64,000 nucleotides of DNA from Lota lota (Eukaryota > Chordata > Actinopteri > Gadiformes > Lotidae), in the NCBI GenBank assembly GCA_026745465.1, contig JACYXH010000826.1:6611224-6675223 (forward strand), given 5' to 3'. Made by a program: the position numbers and the translations under genes. Below the pieces are notes generated by a model. The model searched no databases. It had not been told where the DNA came from and saw nothing but the letters and a program-made list of their open reading frames with translations. Numbering within the stretch: the stretch's first letter is position 1; each line of letters opens with the position of its first letter. Of this stretch, positions 24,370 to 61,819 are shown one piece after another.

Positions 24370-24424
24370 CTGCCCATGTGGTGGGGGTGTGGTCGCCAGC
24401 GGCTGTCATACTCTCAATCATTGT

Positions 24425-24463
24425 GAGAGTGTGTACCTACCTGGTGTGAGTGTGTACCTACCT

Positions 24464-24502
<39 letters not shown>

Positions 24503-25170
24503 CTACCTGGTGTGTGAGTGTATGTGTGTGTGTGTACCTACCTTGTGTGTGAGTTTGTACCTACCTTGTGTGTGAGTGTGTGTGTACCTACCTGGTGTGT
24601 GAGTTTGTACCTACCTGGTGTGTGATTGTGTAACGAACCGGTGTGTGAGTGTGTGTGTGTACCTACCTGGTGTGTGAATGTCTACCTAACCGATGTGTGA
24701 GTGTACCTACCTGGTGTTTGAGTGTGTACTTACCTGGTGTGTTTGAGTGTGTGTACCTATCTGGTGTGTGTGTGTGTGTGTGTACCTACTTGGTATGTGA
24801 GTGTGTGTGTGTGTGTGTGTGTGTACCTACCTGGTGTGGGAGTGTGTGTGTGTACCTACCTGGTGTGGGAGTTTGTAACTACCTGGTGTGTGTGTGTGTG
24901 TGTGTGTACCTACCTGGTGTGTGAGTGAGTGTGTACTTACCTGGTGTGTGAGTGAGTGTGTACCTACCTGGTGTGTGAGTTTGTACCTACCTGGTGTATG
25001 ATTGTGTACCTAGCCGAAGTGTGAGTGTGTGTGTACCTACCTGGTGTGTGAGTGTGTACCTAACCGGTCTGTGAGTGTGTGTGTTCACCTGGTGTGTGAG
25101 TGTACCTACCTGGTGTGTGATTGTGTACCTACCTGGTGTGTTTGAGTGTCTGTACCTACCTGGTGAGTTT
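24425..25170. repeat. GT-rich minisatellite with acctacctggt core
   Basis: About 25 to 30 copies of a variable unit of the form gtgtacctacctggtgtgtgag, with GT stretches of varied length. On the minus strand each core reads accaggtaggt, which is close to a 5' splice consensus. Confidence 0.95.
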
Positions 25171-35357: not shown

Positions 35358-38300
35358 GTGTCTGTGATATTTTTCTTCTTTCGTCTTTATTAGAAAGAGA
35401 GTCTTTACGGGCTGCTCTTTGTAATCTCATAAAAATCCGAGCATGAAGGAGTGACATTAAAGTGCTGTTCATGAAGTCATGTATTATACAAGGACAGGAT
35501 GAAGGTATTTTAAAAGTTAGATCTTCTGTAAAACCTTCATTCTTTACAGCCGCCTCCAGGAACTCTCCTCTTGAACTGCTGCGGAAAACTGTAGTCTTTA
35601 AAAAGGTTGGTTTGTTTTCAGTACAAATCGAATGAATATATCCAATAAAACCGGGACTATATACAGAATAAAACTGAAACAAATCAAGAGTCCCACACAC
35701 ATTTTTTCACACATCAGTTTTTTAGGCTAAGACTTGAAACAGATGTATTGTATAAAAATAGATTGTTAAAGTTAATACCAGTCTGTTCCTTCCCCTGTAC
35801 TGGCAATAATACATCGATTGTTAAAGAAATCGAAACATCCTAATTAATTTACTTAATTGATTCAACAACATCGGTTAATTTCTAGCAATACAATTAACTA
35901 CCTGATCCGTACAAAAACATACTTGACAAGCAGATCATCATTATAAGACTGCGTCTTAGGGATGTGGATGACGAGCAAAATGACATAATATCATTATCAT
36001 AAAGTGTCATTATGTGTTCCCCGCTGGCTCAGGGACAGAGTTGATACCGTTGATGCATTACCTTTGTGTGGCACAGATATAACAGATTGTGGGTTTAATT
36101 TAACTATTACATTTATTTAAATTGTATTTTCACACTGAATTATATTCAAACGGAAATGGCAGCACATTCATAAGATGTAAACTGAAAATGTTAAAAGGTG
36201 AACAATCGTAGTTATGGATAAAGAATATTATTCGTCCAACAGTAATATGATTTGTTTCGCTGTCTATAAATAAAAAGAAATGTCCCATTTTATTATCCGT
36301 TATACAAAATCATGTGACATCAAAAGACCTGCCTATAACTGTCAGGTTCAGAAACACTGGAAGGCTAACTGGTAGCTATATTAAAAGGGAAGGCTAATTT
36401 AGATAATAATATCAAGTGATAGGCTCCAGCTGAGATTTTCTTTTCATAAACCAGAGAGAGAACACGCAACAGAAAGTCCTCCCACACAAGGAGCTAACCA
36501 TGCTAGCCTTCCTCCTAGTTGTAGGCTACTGTGTGTTTCTAGTGTGTATAGGTCACCCTGCCCCAGATAACAAGCTCCTCAGCTCCTTGGCTCCTCGGCT
36601 CCTAACATCCTCAGCTCCTCAAGGTGACCCTCAGCGTGGGTCGTTTGGCTCAAGGCTAAAGCCGTCCAGGCCTCTGTTAGGCTGAAACCTCCCCTAGAGG
36701 AGGACATCTGTAGATAGGACATCAAACCCTCGTTGATCCTTTGACCTTCTAACATCTTAAATGCCCCACCTTCTTGTGGTTATTCTGCAGCTCATGCTCC
36801 TTCTTAGGCTTCTGTGAAGTGGAAACCAAGTGTGCGGTGTTGTTTCACTCCTCACTGTTCTCCAAACATGAACCACTTTCTTTTTACTCTGCAGTGGAAT
36901 GTCGCGCCCCACTGCTCTCACATTAATGCTCACAGTTGGCCCTGATTCAAATCCTCTTTTAGACTCCCTAGTATTTCACTCTTTAAATAACACTAGGTAT
37001 ACAGCTAGTAAGAGGTAACATTTTAAACACAAACACTACAGCCATGTAGAAATGAGCCTGATCCAAGGAGTATTGAGGAAACCAACTAAGACTTACCAAG
37101 AACTCTTTTTCAGAAACTGAGATTTCACGTGTTTAGCTATAGCACTTTCTATTGCTAAGTAGCATTTTTTAAGTGCTATTGCTAAATTCCGTTCATTAAG
37201 AAGACATTATAATGTCATGTGTATTATCTCAAGTGACCATACCATAGTTCTTCTTAATTAATGTCAACCACAAATGATGACAATATTTACCCATGCTTTG
37301 ACTTAAAAACATTATGTTGAAAAGTAACCCCAAAACGATACCATGGAAATATCCATGACCATTCTGCAGAAATTACATTCAACAATGTGAATATAAAGTG
37401 CACACACAACAAAACGAAAGCAAAACATTGCTTAGTTTGCGTTCAGTTTAAAACACAAATATTGAATGTTGAATTACACTTGCAGACTATTGGTCTCTCC
37501 CTGTTGATGGATGTGAATGACATCACCATATTAAACCATTCCAGCCCAGAATCTCTCAAGGTGCCTATTTCATCCGTCACAATGTTTAATTCATGGCTTT
37601 TTTCCTTTCATGGATCACATGGAGTACATTTACACACCTAGCTTTAATTTAATAACCTTATAAAGGTTAAAGTGCAGCCAGGCAGAAGTTCATGTGTCTC
37701 CACTTCACATAATATTATTATTATTAACCTGCACAGTGTACAGAAACGTGTTCCTAACGTGTCTATAAAGCTGGGAGTGATGGAGCTGGAGCCGCTGGAA
37801 ACCATATGGATTCAGACGCTTTGCCGGCCGCCATTATGTTCACGAGTCTCCTGAGGAGCGCAGAGTAAAGGAATAATGAAGAGGTGCTGAGAGATCAGAT
37901 TAAGAGAAGAGACAGGAGAAATGCATGGATGTCCAACCCACAGCCACACGCACACGCAAACACACACACATGCATGCACACACACACAGATTAGGGTGTG
38001 TTGACAGGAGTGGGATGACTCCAGACCACATTGAGGCGTCAACAAAATGGCCTTCATGTCCTTACTTTACACATATACTGTAGGTTGATAAGGATTAAGG
38101 ATTCCATATTTGTTTTTGTTAAAGATTTATTGAACTATATCGGATGTGTTTCCCATTGTCTTTCTTCTATTTGAGATACTTAATGGGTTTTCAGGAGTCA
38201 TTAGTTTAGGTCTAGCAACAGCTGCTTTGTAAATCACAAGGTGCGAATTGGAATGAAGGCTTAATAATTTATATATATACCTGCGGCAAACAGGGATCTG

Positions 38301-39323: not shown

Positions 39324-39595
39324 GATCATACATGCTGGTGAACTCCTCCCAGCATGCTGCGGGGCACCGCGCTCAGCTGCTGCTCCAGACCCTGAGCGAG
39401 AACGACACTCACTGCGTCCAGTTCAGCTACTTCCTGTACAGCCGCGACGGCCACAGCCCCGGGGCTCTGAGGGCGTATGTACGCGTCAACGGAGGGCCCC
39501 TGGGGAGCCCCGTGTGGAACACATCAGGATCCCACGGCAAGCAGTGGCACCAGGTGGAGCTGGCGGTCAGCACCTTCTGGCCCAACGAATACCAG
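39324..39595 (+). CDS. ptpru: ptpru exon 3: central MAM domain
   Basis: The 272-nt exon runs from acceptor ttccctttag to donor gtgaga. It begins in phase 1 (GA completes Gly) and ends in phase 0 after Gln. It encodes [18 protein letters not shown], then [36 protein letters not shown] and [18 protein letters not shown]. This is the core of a MAM domain with the conserved Cys, the F-x-Y-x-x-x-S-R-D segment and the V-x-V-N-G-G strand. Sequons NSS (39341), NDT (39401) and NTS (39518) predict N-glycosylation. The similarity to mammalian PTPRU here is very high. The exon's last bases and its donor seed a 35-bp tandem repeat that fills the next 380 nt of intron 3. Confidence 0.98.
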
Positions 39596-39985
39596 GTGAG
39601 ACACCTTAAGACCAGCACAATGAATACCAGGTAACACACCTGGACTCTGGCCCAACGACTACCAGGTGAGGCACCTGGACACTGGTCCAACGAATACCAG
39701 GTGAGGCACCTGGACACTGGTCCAACGAATACCAGGTAACACACCTGGACACTGGCACAATGCATACCAGGTGAGACACCTGGACACTGGCACAATGAAT
39801 ACCAGGTAACACACCTGGACACTGGCACAATGAATACCAGATAGCACACCGGGACACTGGCATAATGAATACCAGGTACCACACCGGGACACTGGCATAA
39901 TGAATACCAGGTAACACACCGGGACACTGGCACAATTAATACCAGGTGAGACACCGGCCCAGTGAATACCAGGTAAGACACCTGG
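39570..39985 (+). repeat. 35-bp minisatellite derived from the exon 3/intron 3 donor
   Basis: A 35-bp unit ending in (g)aataccag and followed by gtgag or gtaac repeats from the real exon end at 39595. Copies of taccag end at 39630, 39665, 39700, 39735, 39770, 39805, 39840, 39875, 39910, 39945 and 39972, so the spacing is exactly 35 nt except for the last (27). Several copies keep the exon word cccaacga or tccaacga upstream, showing that the unit includes exon 3 coding sequence. Ten of the eleven intronic copies keep GT after CAG; the one after 39840 has AT. Extended reading from exon 3 meets TAA at 39632. Confidence 0.95.
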
Positions 39986-40035
39986 ACAACGGCAGGCTCC
40001 AATGCAGCTGATTAAGTACTTTACTCTCCGCGTGT

Positions 40036-46364: not shown

Positions 46365-46446
46365 GTCCTGATTGAGGCGATGGTATCTAGGGATGGGCGG
46401 GGCTACATCGCCATCGACGACATCATGCTGCTCAACTATCCCTGCT
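46365..46446 (+). CDS. ptpru: ptpru exon 4: end of the MAM domain
   Basis: The 82-nt exon lies between acceptor ttttcatttcag and donor gtaagt. It starts in phase 0 and ends with one base of a split codon. It encodes [19 protein letters not shown], then IMLLNYPC. The G-Y-x-A-x-D-D motif followed by a final Cys is the conserved closing strand of MAM domains, and the Cys should pair with an earlier MAM cysteine. The 82-nt length is the size I recall for this exon across R2B genes. In human PTPRU the segment is similar but has GLDDILLL in place of AIDDIMLL. The split codon T/AT with exon 5 gives Tyr. Confidence 0.98.
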
Positions 46447-48512
46447 GTAAGTGGTTCTCTTCTGCTGCACTTCATAAATACCAGCTTCACAAGGTACAGA
46501 CAGAGGCAAGGCTGGTTCAATGTTACTACACTCTCATGAATACACAAAGTTGTTTTGCGAGCCATGGGTGCTACCTCAGAAGCAGAGACTTATTAGGGAA
46601 CAGTTTCAAGATAAAGTTAAAGTGCACTTTCCCAAATTCACTGGCTCTACTAAAAGCATTGTTTTCCTTTTGACCTCGAACTAGGTTAGAGTTGCATTTT
46701 AGTTAGTTCACGTAGTGGAGTTTTTCCATCACACAAACCGAAAGAGTAAAGATTCATTAACCAGTGTTTTCCTTTGTGACCTTGTGGTGCCGTTCAGACT
46801 TTTCTGTTTTACGCTGTGGCGATCTTTAAAGGACAGAAGATTGACATGTGCACAGTCCTTGAGTGACTAATTATTGTGTTTAATACCAGAACAGGGCCAG
46901 TCTCACCACCACTTACAAACTACCCAACCAACCCAACCAACGGATTGTCTTAACACTAATGGTCCACACTGCTTCAAGGTCCCTCATTGACCATTAACTC
47001 CTTAACGTTTCCTTGTTCGTGTTTTGGAAAACAACTAAATTCTTAGAATTGCTTCCGCATATTGCAAATGTGTAATCTGAGACCTTGGCTCTTAAGAGTG
47101 GAACCACCAGCAGCTATGTCATTTAAATGAGAAACAATAGCAAGGAAATTGATTCCCTCACTCCCCCCCCCATGTACCACCCAGAGATTTTGTGTTTTTC
47201 TCTGTGAGACAGCAGATGGTATATTCTACATGCTCCCACTGTGACCATTAAATAATGAAGAGTCTCATCAAGACCTGGGCCTGCTGTCTCATGTGGCACA
47301 TGGCCAGGACGAGGAGAGGGAGGGGAGTCAAGGAAATAACTAAAAATCAAAGTCAATTGTTTTCAAAGTAGAAAAAAAAACACTCCTGCTGAACGAGCTC
47401 CTCCTCGTGCATTGTGGGTAAACTGCTGAGCAGAGCTGACATTTCTGTTGCCCCCTCCTGAGCCTGAGTCTTTGACTCCGAAACCAGTGTTGCAGTCAAA
47501 TAAAATATTGATGGCGCTAAAGGGTCCTGGGGATGAGATCTGACACATTTAGCTGTATAACGCGGCACTCCTCGCCAAGCGAACAGCCTGTTCCCTTCCC
47601 TCCCCTTCCCCCCCCATTCACGCTTGTTTGCTTATGTTTGGCTCTCCGACATGAATTATGAATTAACCTTATGAGGACGAGTCACTTGAAGGCAACATGG
47701 CCACCTGTGGGTACACATTCATGCAGATCTCCCCTCCTACTTACACAAACACCATCAATAGGATGTCACCCTCCCTTTGCCAGAAAACAACACAATGTAG
47801 CATGCAACTAAACAATCATTGGCTCCACAATGGAGAGCCACAACATCTGCTCCTCCCTCACACCCTCTCTTCCCCGCTGCTCTGCCATCTTCAGCTGTCC
47901 ATCATCTAGATTGACAGGTCAGATTGTCCTTCCACATGGTTTTTTTCTGTAATGGCAGGCGATGTTGAATCCTTCCTCGCCGGTTTGGCTCAGCAGGGGT
48001 TGAGCTCTCTGTGCTCTTTTGTTAATCATAGAGTCTGCTCCTACACTCAGTGACTCAGCAGTGAAAGGCATTCTGGGACATCATTAGCAAAATTGTGGAG
48101 GACTGATCCGTCGCCCCTCCCTCAGTGGGATGGTCGTCTGTAGATACTGTGCTTGGCTAGTTTCATTCTAGTGACTATTGAATGGCCGCTGATAAAAGAA
48201 GACAGGAACATAGCGCCGTTTCAAAATTTTCCAACTAAGTAAATACATAAATACGTTAGGCCACTGATTGAAGGAATGACATCTGGATAATAACAGAAAA
48301 GCATAATTAAAAAAAAGCTGTTGTCTAAATCTGTCATCCAGGAATGTGACAATCTGCTGCCTGCCAAACACGTTCCCATTTATGTTTTTGATGAACAAAA
48401 CACCTTGATGAAATTGTTATTTGTGCTGCCGTCTGGCTGATATTTGAAAGGTATTTTATGAGCTCTCTTTTTTCTCTGTTCTACCATGTGTTTCTACTTC
48501 CTGTCTTTGTAG
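46447..48512 (+). other. ptpru: intron 4
   Basis: This 2.07-kb intron has donor gtaagt and acceptor ctgtctttgtag. It has little tandem repeat apart from a short C run at about 47163-47171. I see no gene, transposon or structured element in it. It is the least repetitive intron of comparable size in the window. Confidence 0.85.
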
Positions 48513-52068: not shown

Positions 52069-52138
52069 TGCATGCGTGCATGTTGATGTGGAGGAGGGGA
52101 GGGTTATGTGTTTTATTTATTTGTTCCTGACCCTGTTT

Positions 52139-52270
52139 ATCTGTCTGTCTATCTGTGTGTCCGTCAATCTGTCTGTCCATCTATCTAAACTATCGGTCTG
52201 TCCGTCTCCCTGCCTATCTGCCTGTCTATCTGTCCATCTCTTTGTCCATCTCTCTGACTGTCTGTATGTG
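52139..52270. repeat. CTGT/CTAT tetranucleotide-like array
   Basis: Degenerate ctgtctgtctatctgtccgt repeats ending about 35 nt before exon 6. Confidence 0.92.
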
Positions 52271-52304
52271 TGTGTGCGTGTGCGTGCGTGTGTGTGTTCC
52301 CCAG

Positions 52305-52479
52305 AGGCAGAGCGGTGAGGTGGCGTCTGTGGCGTCCGTGAGGCACCTGAGTCACCGGCGCTTCGTGGCGTCCTTCCAGCTGGACGGGGTGCAGCGTTCC
52401 TACCAGGACCTCTACCGCTGCGTCACCCAGTCGCCTCGGGGCTCCGGGGTCTCCAACTACGCTGAGCTTGTCGTTAAAG
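52305..52479 (+). CDS. ptpru: ptpru exon 6: second half of the Ig domain
   Basis: The 175-nt exon lies between acceptor gtgttccccag and donor gtgaag. It starts in phase 0 and ends with one base of a Val codon. It encodes [19 protein letters not shown], then [20 protein letters not shown], then [22 protein letters not shown] supplies the second Ig disulphide cysteine, and [13 protein letters not shown] is the conserved Ig-to-FN3 junction of R2B phosphatases. R-H-L-S-H-R-R-F is PTPRU-like. The open frame continues on both sides through low-complexity intron sequence, but homology and splice sites define the exon clearly. Confidence 0.98.
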
Positions 52480-52504: not shown

Positions 52505-52589
52505 TTATCCTTTCTCTCTGTCACGCTACATCGCTCGCTCTCGCTCTCTATATCTCTCTCTCTCGCTCTCGTTCTCGCTGATGCTCTCG

Positions 52590-52628
<39 letters not shown>

Positions 52629-52945
52629 ACTCTCACTCTCTATCTCTCTCTCTCGCTGTTGCTCTTGCTCTCTCGCTCTCTCTCTCCCGCTGTTGCTGTT
52701 TCGCTCTCTCCTAGTCGCTCTCTCTCTCTCTCCCGCTGTTGCTGTTGCTCTCTCGCTCTCTTGCTCCCGCTGTCGCTGTTGCTCTCTCACTCTCGAAGTC
52801 GCTCTCTCTCTCTCCCGCTGTCACTGTCGCTCTCTCTCTCTCTCGCTGTTGCTGTCGCTCTCTCGCTCTCTGTTGCTCTCGCTTTCTCTCTCTCTCTTTT
52901 TCCTCCGCTCTTCACTATTCTTTCTCTCTCTTTCTTTCCCTATTC
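52505..52945. repeat. TC-rich low complexity after exon 6
   Basis: About 440 nt of ctctcgctctct with recurring cccgctgttgctgttgctct segments, starting about 25 nt after the exon 6 donor. Confidence 0.95.
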
Positions 52946-61359: not shown

Positions 61360-61499
61360 TCTCCCCCTCCCTCCCTCTCCTCTCCTCTCCTCTCCTCCTC
61401 TCCTCTCCTCTCCTCTCCTCTCCTCTCCTCTCCTCTCCTCTCCTCTCCTCTCCTCTCCTCTCCCCTCCCTCTCTTCTCCCCTCCTCTCCTCCCCCCCTC
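61360..61499 (+). repeat. 140-nt pyrimidine tract with (TCTCC)n, exon 8 acceptor
   Basis: Every base from 61360 to 61499 is C or T, with a central run of about 16 tctcc pentamers. The tract continues directly into the AG (61500-61501) of the exon 8 acceptor, so it forms a greatly extended polypyrimidine tract. Confidence 0.97.
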
Positions 61500-61501
61500 A
61501 G

Positions 61502-61819
61502 AACCCATGCGCGCCCTGCGGGGTCTGACTGCCACGGACCTTCAGGCCAGGCAGCTGTCTCTGCAGTGGGAGAGCCTGGCGTTCAACCTGACGCGCTGTC
61601 ACACCTACTCGGTGTCCCTGTGCTACCGCTACGCCACGGCAGGCGGAGGCGGCGGTCACAACACCACCGTGCGTGAGTGCCTGGCGGTGGAGCACAACGC
61701 GTCTCGCTTCACGCTCCGCGACCTGCCGCCCTACCACGCCGTCCACGTCCGTCTGGCCCTGTCCAACCCAGAGGGGAAGAGAGAGGGCAGGGAGGTCGCC
61801 TTCCAGACCGAGGAAGACA
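61502..61819 (+). CDS. ptpru: ptpru exon 8: fibronectin type III domain 2
   Basis: The 318-nt exon lies between acceptor ccccccctcag and donor gtaagt, in phase 1 on both sides. It encodes [20 protein letters not shown], then [60 protein letters not shown] and [19 protein letters not shown]-x-L-Q-W, T-R-C-H-T-Y and S-N-P-E-G are FN3-2 motifs of PTPRU. A five-glycine run (61642-61656) sits in the loop where the mammalian protein has a shorter Gly/Ser stretch, making the exon slightly longer than I recall. Sequons NLT, NTT and NAS are present. Confidence 0.98.

Follow-up and report, generated by a model that had tools for sequence, protein, structure and literature searches.

The 5' splice site of intron 3 in a fish ptprub (PTPRU) gene lies inside a 35-nt minisatellite, the twelve copies of which extend from the end of exon 3 into the start of the intron (39577 to 39988 on the plus strand of the window, i.e. 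the whole 64,000-nt stretch of Lota lota DNA analysed here). In our opinion this is probably a junction-derived minisatellite that arose by chance, with the first donor carrying out nearly all splicing and with the leakage to later copies being removed by decay.

The host gene on the plus strand is a MAM-Ig-FN3 receptor phosphatase of the PTPRU type, a class assignment made from the MAM and FN3 domains together with the protein match; the phosphatase part lies outside the window. Pfam matches MAM and FN3 domains in the ptprub exons (a second FN3 exon remains below the cut-off), and a hit of the protein search, P0003, bears the name protein tyrosine phosphatase receptor type Ub (Neolamprologus brichardi; 97% over 88%). 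Exon 3 (39324 to 39595, 272 nt), which keeps the number given to it by an earlier, sequence-only reading of this DNA, encodes the greater part of the MAM domain (Pfam E 1.2e-18 over 39326-39595); exons 1 and 2 were not found in the window. Its match to PTPRK and PTPRM structures reaches the last residue (best E 9.5e-34), and it ends in FWPNEYQ with CAG/GTGAGA, so that the true donor GT of intron 3 is placed at 39596-39597 by frame, homology and the open spliced model. Exon 4 (46365 to 46446, 82 nt) contains the end of the MAM domain (Pfam E 0.00089 over 46365-46448, below the curated cut-off) and accepts intron 3, 6769 nt in length, at TTTCAG/GTCCTG with an open joined frame. Seven exons joined from 39324 to 63463 yield one stop-free frame of 427 codons, a partial model of the gene.

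An open frame at 36500-36685, which starts with MLAFLLVVGYCVFLVCIGHPAPDNKLL, resembles a signal peptide and has no Pfam match. Low-complexity arrays (52133-52296 and 52534-52909) closely flank the exon at 52305-52479, and roughly 126 nt of (CCTCT)n repeat (61366-61501) stand directly before the FN3 exon acceptor at 61502 and form its pyrimidine tract, so that ptprub has a repeat at one of its 3' splice sites as well.

TRF reports a single array at 39577-39988 (period 35, 12.0 copies, score 481), arranged head to tail and with a unit within the 10-100 bp of minisatellites. Its lag-35 identity is 0.825, compared to a mean of 0.27 and a maximum of 0.36 in 2000 base shuffles. The array starts within the last coding bases of exon 3 and hence covers the true donor. 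The sequence-only reading had described an exon border followed by eleven further copies of the TACCAG/GT junction, spaced by 35 nt with a last spacing of 27, ten of which keep the GT. Both TRF and the motif positions confirm this description: TACCAG at 39590 in the exon recurs at eleven sites, from 39625 to 39940 at exact 35-nt steps and then, after a step of 27, at 39967. The first intron-side bases of these decoy junctions (39631 to 39974), as located by the TACCAG positions and donor scoring, are 39631, 39666, 39701, 39736, 39771, 39806, 39841, 39876, 39911, 39946 and 39973, and the copy at 39841, which reads AT, is the sole exception to the GT. Tandem arrays are error-prone in assemblies, and either the copy number or the whole array could be a misassembly. 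However, the differences among the copies (pairwise, 24-34 of 35 positions are identical) are orderly and unlike the traces of collapse or of a duplication error, and we give such an artefact hardly any credence.

The exon end provides the key to the direction of copying. FWPNEYQ or a close variant (FWP[NSGD][..]YQ) occurs at this position in 84 of 89 database relatives, PTPRK- and PTPRM-like proteins included, and the coding copy is therefore taken to be ancestral and the exon to be the source of the array. This conservation supports a derivation of the array from the exon 3/intron 3 junction, with copying from exon to intron, and agrees with the earlier proposal that the array grew from the junction itself. 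The accompanying claim that early copies retain exon coding words is correct for copies 2-4, which are nearest to the exon (19, 18 and 18 of 21 exon-like bases), but not for the first decoy, which has the lowest value of the eleven (15 of 21) and is closest to the copy at 39806 (32 of 35). A simple outward growth, copy by copy, is not compatible with a first decoy that is the least exon-like, and exchange within the array may have moved units about. As for the mutational steps, we infer that the last approximately 20 coding bases of exon 3 and the first approximately 15 bases of the intron were duplicated in tandem, by strand slippage or unequal exchange. The duplicate would then have spread to a twelve-copy minisatellite in a stretch rich in such arrays, where coding and splicing constraint would keep the exonic copy and the intronic copies would drift.

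The age of the array was approached through the relatives, examined as protein tails past the junction (89 hits, 84 of them with the junction motif and 68 with at least 12 residues after it). No second EYQ or YQV was found in the tails of the 84 relatives with the motif, including the 68 longer ones. With all frames of the array taken into account, six of the 84 tails have a 4-mer in common with it (an average of 2.8 after shuffling of the tails, with 5% of shuffles reaching 6), and one has a 5-mer in common, as do 17% of the shuffles. These tails are weak evidence against a shared array, given that the window's own tail likewise lacks EYQ, that at least three tails (P0029, P0082 and P0084) look spliced, and that tails from gene models may not be intronic. 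In P0075 the reading past the junction, VRHMNTRYVLK, has MNTRY in common with the array, which may reflect either a small duplication of independent origin or coincidence. P0001 probably represents a close relative, judging from a reading upstream of its exon (FDATDPWLTSDVLSLSLVPL) that resembles the end of the window's intron 2 (14 of 20 by eye). Its tail, VRNLQNS, fits the first and the last copies equally, and P0001 consequently gives no date for the array. Pattern scans returned 39 stretches in genome contigs and three in viral contigs, none of them from a relative.

How unusual is a minisatellite at an exon border in such a genomic environment? The window contains 17 minisatellites with a total of 6392 bases, approximately 10% of its length, after five arrays dominated by 1-6 bp units had been dropped from the count. 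One of 14 exon borders falls inside a minisatellite compared to 1.4 expected, and 68% of 20000 circular shifts give at least one such border; the calculation was run twice, with rough exon borders and then with two borders one base off, and the means agree (1.40 and 1.395). With one hit against 1.4 expected, the mere presence of a junction-bearing minisatellite is no sign of function here. Tandem repeats of all periods occupy approximately 16% of the window (1-64000). A minisatellite on the minus strand (24422-25165), for which no splice role is known, served as a comparison array: it carries 20 equally good donor-like sites (CAGGTAGGT and similar). Before it on the minus strand, one of three frames is open for 43 codons.

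Nor do the copied donor columns show constraint. Over the eleven decoys, the nine donor columns show changes in 14 of 99 cells and the other 26 columns in 26 of 286, and random sets of nine columns reach at least 14 changes in 19% of permutations. On the other hand, the eight columns of the core TACCAG/GT form the least variable stretch of the unit, with a single change in 88 cells (P = 0.06), and this quiet core counts against a purely fortuitous array.

The strength of the copies was assessed with a weight matrix and, as a second measure, with the U1 duplex energy. The true donor has a matrix score of 10.87 and a duplex energy of -11.1 kcal/mol. Five of the eleven decoys (39666, 39701, 39771, 39946 and 39973) score at least as high in the matrix, and they are the only ones to do so among 413 GTs scanned in intron 3. 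In the U1 duplex, four decoys equal or exceed the true donor and a fifth follows at -11.0 kcal/mol; four have -8.0, one has -7.1, and the copy without GT has -1.6 kcal/mol. The earlier statement that several decoys match the consensus as well as the real site is therefore correct for five copies by matrix and for four by U1 energy (the fifth being 0.1 kcal/mol weaker), but the other six are weaker by both measures.

Most copies can also form a hairpin around the donor, CCAGGTG/CACCTGG, for which the local RNA fold at 39661-39682 is an example. In such local folds eight of the eleven decoy hairpins, including those of all five strong decoys, exceed the hairpin of the true donor (-4.4 kcal/mol) in stability, and three fall short of it. 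The folding z-scores of the 35-nt copies are modest (-0.70 to -2.76; true site -1.97). Compensatory pairing in the stem was considered as well and found no support, as the CACCGG copies break it.

The presence of strong donors in stable hairpins might suggest a selected U1 decoy or splicing buffer, in which U1 would be held near exon 3 and ptprub tuned via decay, or premature polyadenylation blocked in the long intron. Five copies with a predicted U1 affinity close to that of the true donor, a property unique among the GTs of the intron, would suit such a role; the hairpins could keep U1 bound but unspliced, and AATAAA does occur in intron 3 (43176, 43718, 44302 and 44313). However, the nearest AATAAA lies 3.2 kb past the array, in the whole-region fold accessibility falls below that of the true donor (0.42) in only three of the five strong decoys (0.28, 0.28 and 0.32; the other two have 0.45 and 0.47), and the minus-strand array with its 20 equal sites indicates that such arrays arise here anyway. 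The suggestion of the sequence-only reading that the decoys compete for U1 or act as a splicing buffer thus finds no support: the donor columns are at least as variable as the remaining ones, six copies are clearly weaker, one lacks the GT, and the overlap with an exon border is expected by chance. We consider selection for such a function improbable. A related possibility, to which we attach equally little probability, is a self-masked decoy array, in which the strong copies in their stabler hairpins would capture U1 or hold up splicing while themselves remaining unused, and the copy number would set the ptprub output of individuals via stop-bearing transcripts.

Alternatively, the array might act as DNA. 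CAGGTG and CACCTG, which we take to be E2-box motifs bound by ZEB, SNAIL and E-proteins, occur five and seven times in the array versus zero and one times in the remaining intron, as would be expected of a homotypic transcription-factor cluster. Nevertheless, the motif is nothing but the donor and its partial inverted repeat, which are carried along with the unit, and CACCTG is lost in four of the eleven copies (CACCGG). A cluster of this kind is very unlikely.

Splicing at any of the eleven decoys leads to a premature stop in the spliced gene model. The first decoy adds 35 nt and shifts the frame, so that translation would end in exon 4 at a stop 75 nt ahead of the following junction. The ten later decoys all include a TAA in the frame of exon 3 (39632-39634), beyond which the window holds five or six further junctions. 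The consequences predicted earlier for the first decoy and for longer extensions thus hold for every copy. A stop well upstream of later junctions is expected to trigger decay under the exon-junction rule, and since each decoy places a stop ahead of downstream junctions, decoy-spliced ptprub RNA is expected to share this fate. Skipping of exon 4 likewise shifts the frame of the model, which would then end at residue 140 instead of running through its 427 codons.

Under the chance origin that we favour, exon definition by the spliceosome would direct nearly all transcripts to the first donor. Occasional use of a later copy would add 35 nt or more and lead to a stop no more than about a dozen codons further on; such RNA would be cleared by nonsense-mediated decay. 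In a study on competing donors, the upstream of two equal donors was the only one used in each of five minigenes, under exon definition (PMC9225289). The same source provides a counterpoint: among natural events with exons >250 nt, preference for the upstream site was limited to 44% (PMC9225289 Table 1). Exon 3 with its 272 nt falls in this class, which counts against nearly all splicing being done by the first donor.

Among the literature matches listed, which cover open-licence papers only, none describes an array in ptpru. Several systems are nonetheless comparable in their arrangement. Human IFI6 (6-16, G1P3), a second precedent beside ABCA7, is reported to possess a minisatellite that offers several splice donors (Turri et al. 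1995) and so shares with ptprub, whose donors are predicted, a tandem repeat of donor units at one exon. In IFI6 two downstream units are reportedly used and give isoforms, whereas all eleven alternatives in ptprub give a stop. Intron gain by tandem duplication of AGGT-containing segments (the Rogers model; ATP2A1 and a 24-bp case in fission yeast, PMC4974935) likewise involves tandem AG/GT junction copies beside an exon. That model, however, needs copies as acceptors, whereas ptprub has multiplied an existing donor and gained no new intron. From the sequence only, we rejected this mechanism for ptprub: 6-8 pyrimidines precede each AG within 15 nt, and a 35-nt unit is too short for an intron. 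In MIR137HG, a VNTR in exon 3 goes together with novel 5' splice sites of that exon (PMC6692358), an association of a VNTR with the 5' splice sites of one exon that recurs in ptprub. The host transcript of MIR137HG is non-coding, in contrast to ptprub.

The human Alzheimer's risk gene ABCA7 offers the closest parallel. The donor of exon 18 lies within its intron 18 VNTR (De Roeck et al. 2018, PMC5954066), and both genes have a minisatellite at an exon border that includes the true donor, GT-bearing donor-like units, and a one-unit retention that is out of frame and exposed to decay. The ptprub array spans the true donor, ten of its eleven decoys keep GT and five are matrix-strong, and in the gene model retention of 35 nt shifts the frame. 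The ptprub array is thereby less exceptional than it might seem, since the ABCA7 VNTR has nearly the same arrangement. The likeness is one of arrangement and not a sequence comparison, and there are differences: the 25-bp ABCA7 unit is described as starting at the GT, i.e. as intronic, whereas the 35-nt ptprub unit includes about 20 exon bases; ABCA7 alleles range from about 12 to 427 units with measured splicing, whereas ptprub is represented by one allele of 12 known from DNA alone. Retention of one ABCA7 unit amounts to 2 +/- 1%, shifts the frame and is raised by cycloheximide, whereas skipping of exon 19 reaches 12-45% depending on the tissue, rises with VNTR size (p = 3.24e-13) and is 4.1-fold higher from an expanded allele (PMC5954066). 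The alternative transcripts, mainly those with exon 19 skipped, jointly exceed the canonical one in 90% of BA10 samples (PMC5954066), which implies that donor-bearing arrays need not be silent.

We expect little use of the decoys in ptprub, because the upstream donor wins in minigenes and the one-unit retention in ABCA7 is only about 2%, and exon 4 skipping would be the outcome to watch for. Length variation is common among tandem arrays of such a size. It is conceivable, though rather unlikely, that an array of chance origin has real effects as a length-dependent modifier of splicing, which would hamper the donor of exon 3 in pairing with the acceptor of exon 4; longer alleles would then skip exon 4 and yield less ptprub protein. 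The anatomy shared with ABCA7 and the stop that follows exon 4 skipping speak for such a modifier. Against it, the array of 412 nt is near the shortest ABCA7 allele (298 bp), at which skipping is lowest. The ptprub array would represent a fish case of a donor-including VNTR whose unit contains the exon end, so that the direction of copying can be read. It also provides a natural series of twelve near-identical donors in one intron, on which the cell's choice of the first could be studied, and it might underlie differences in splicing among individuals. If exon 4 skipping does depend on array length, the mechanism observed in ABCA7 would be a general one.
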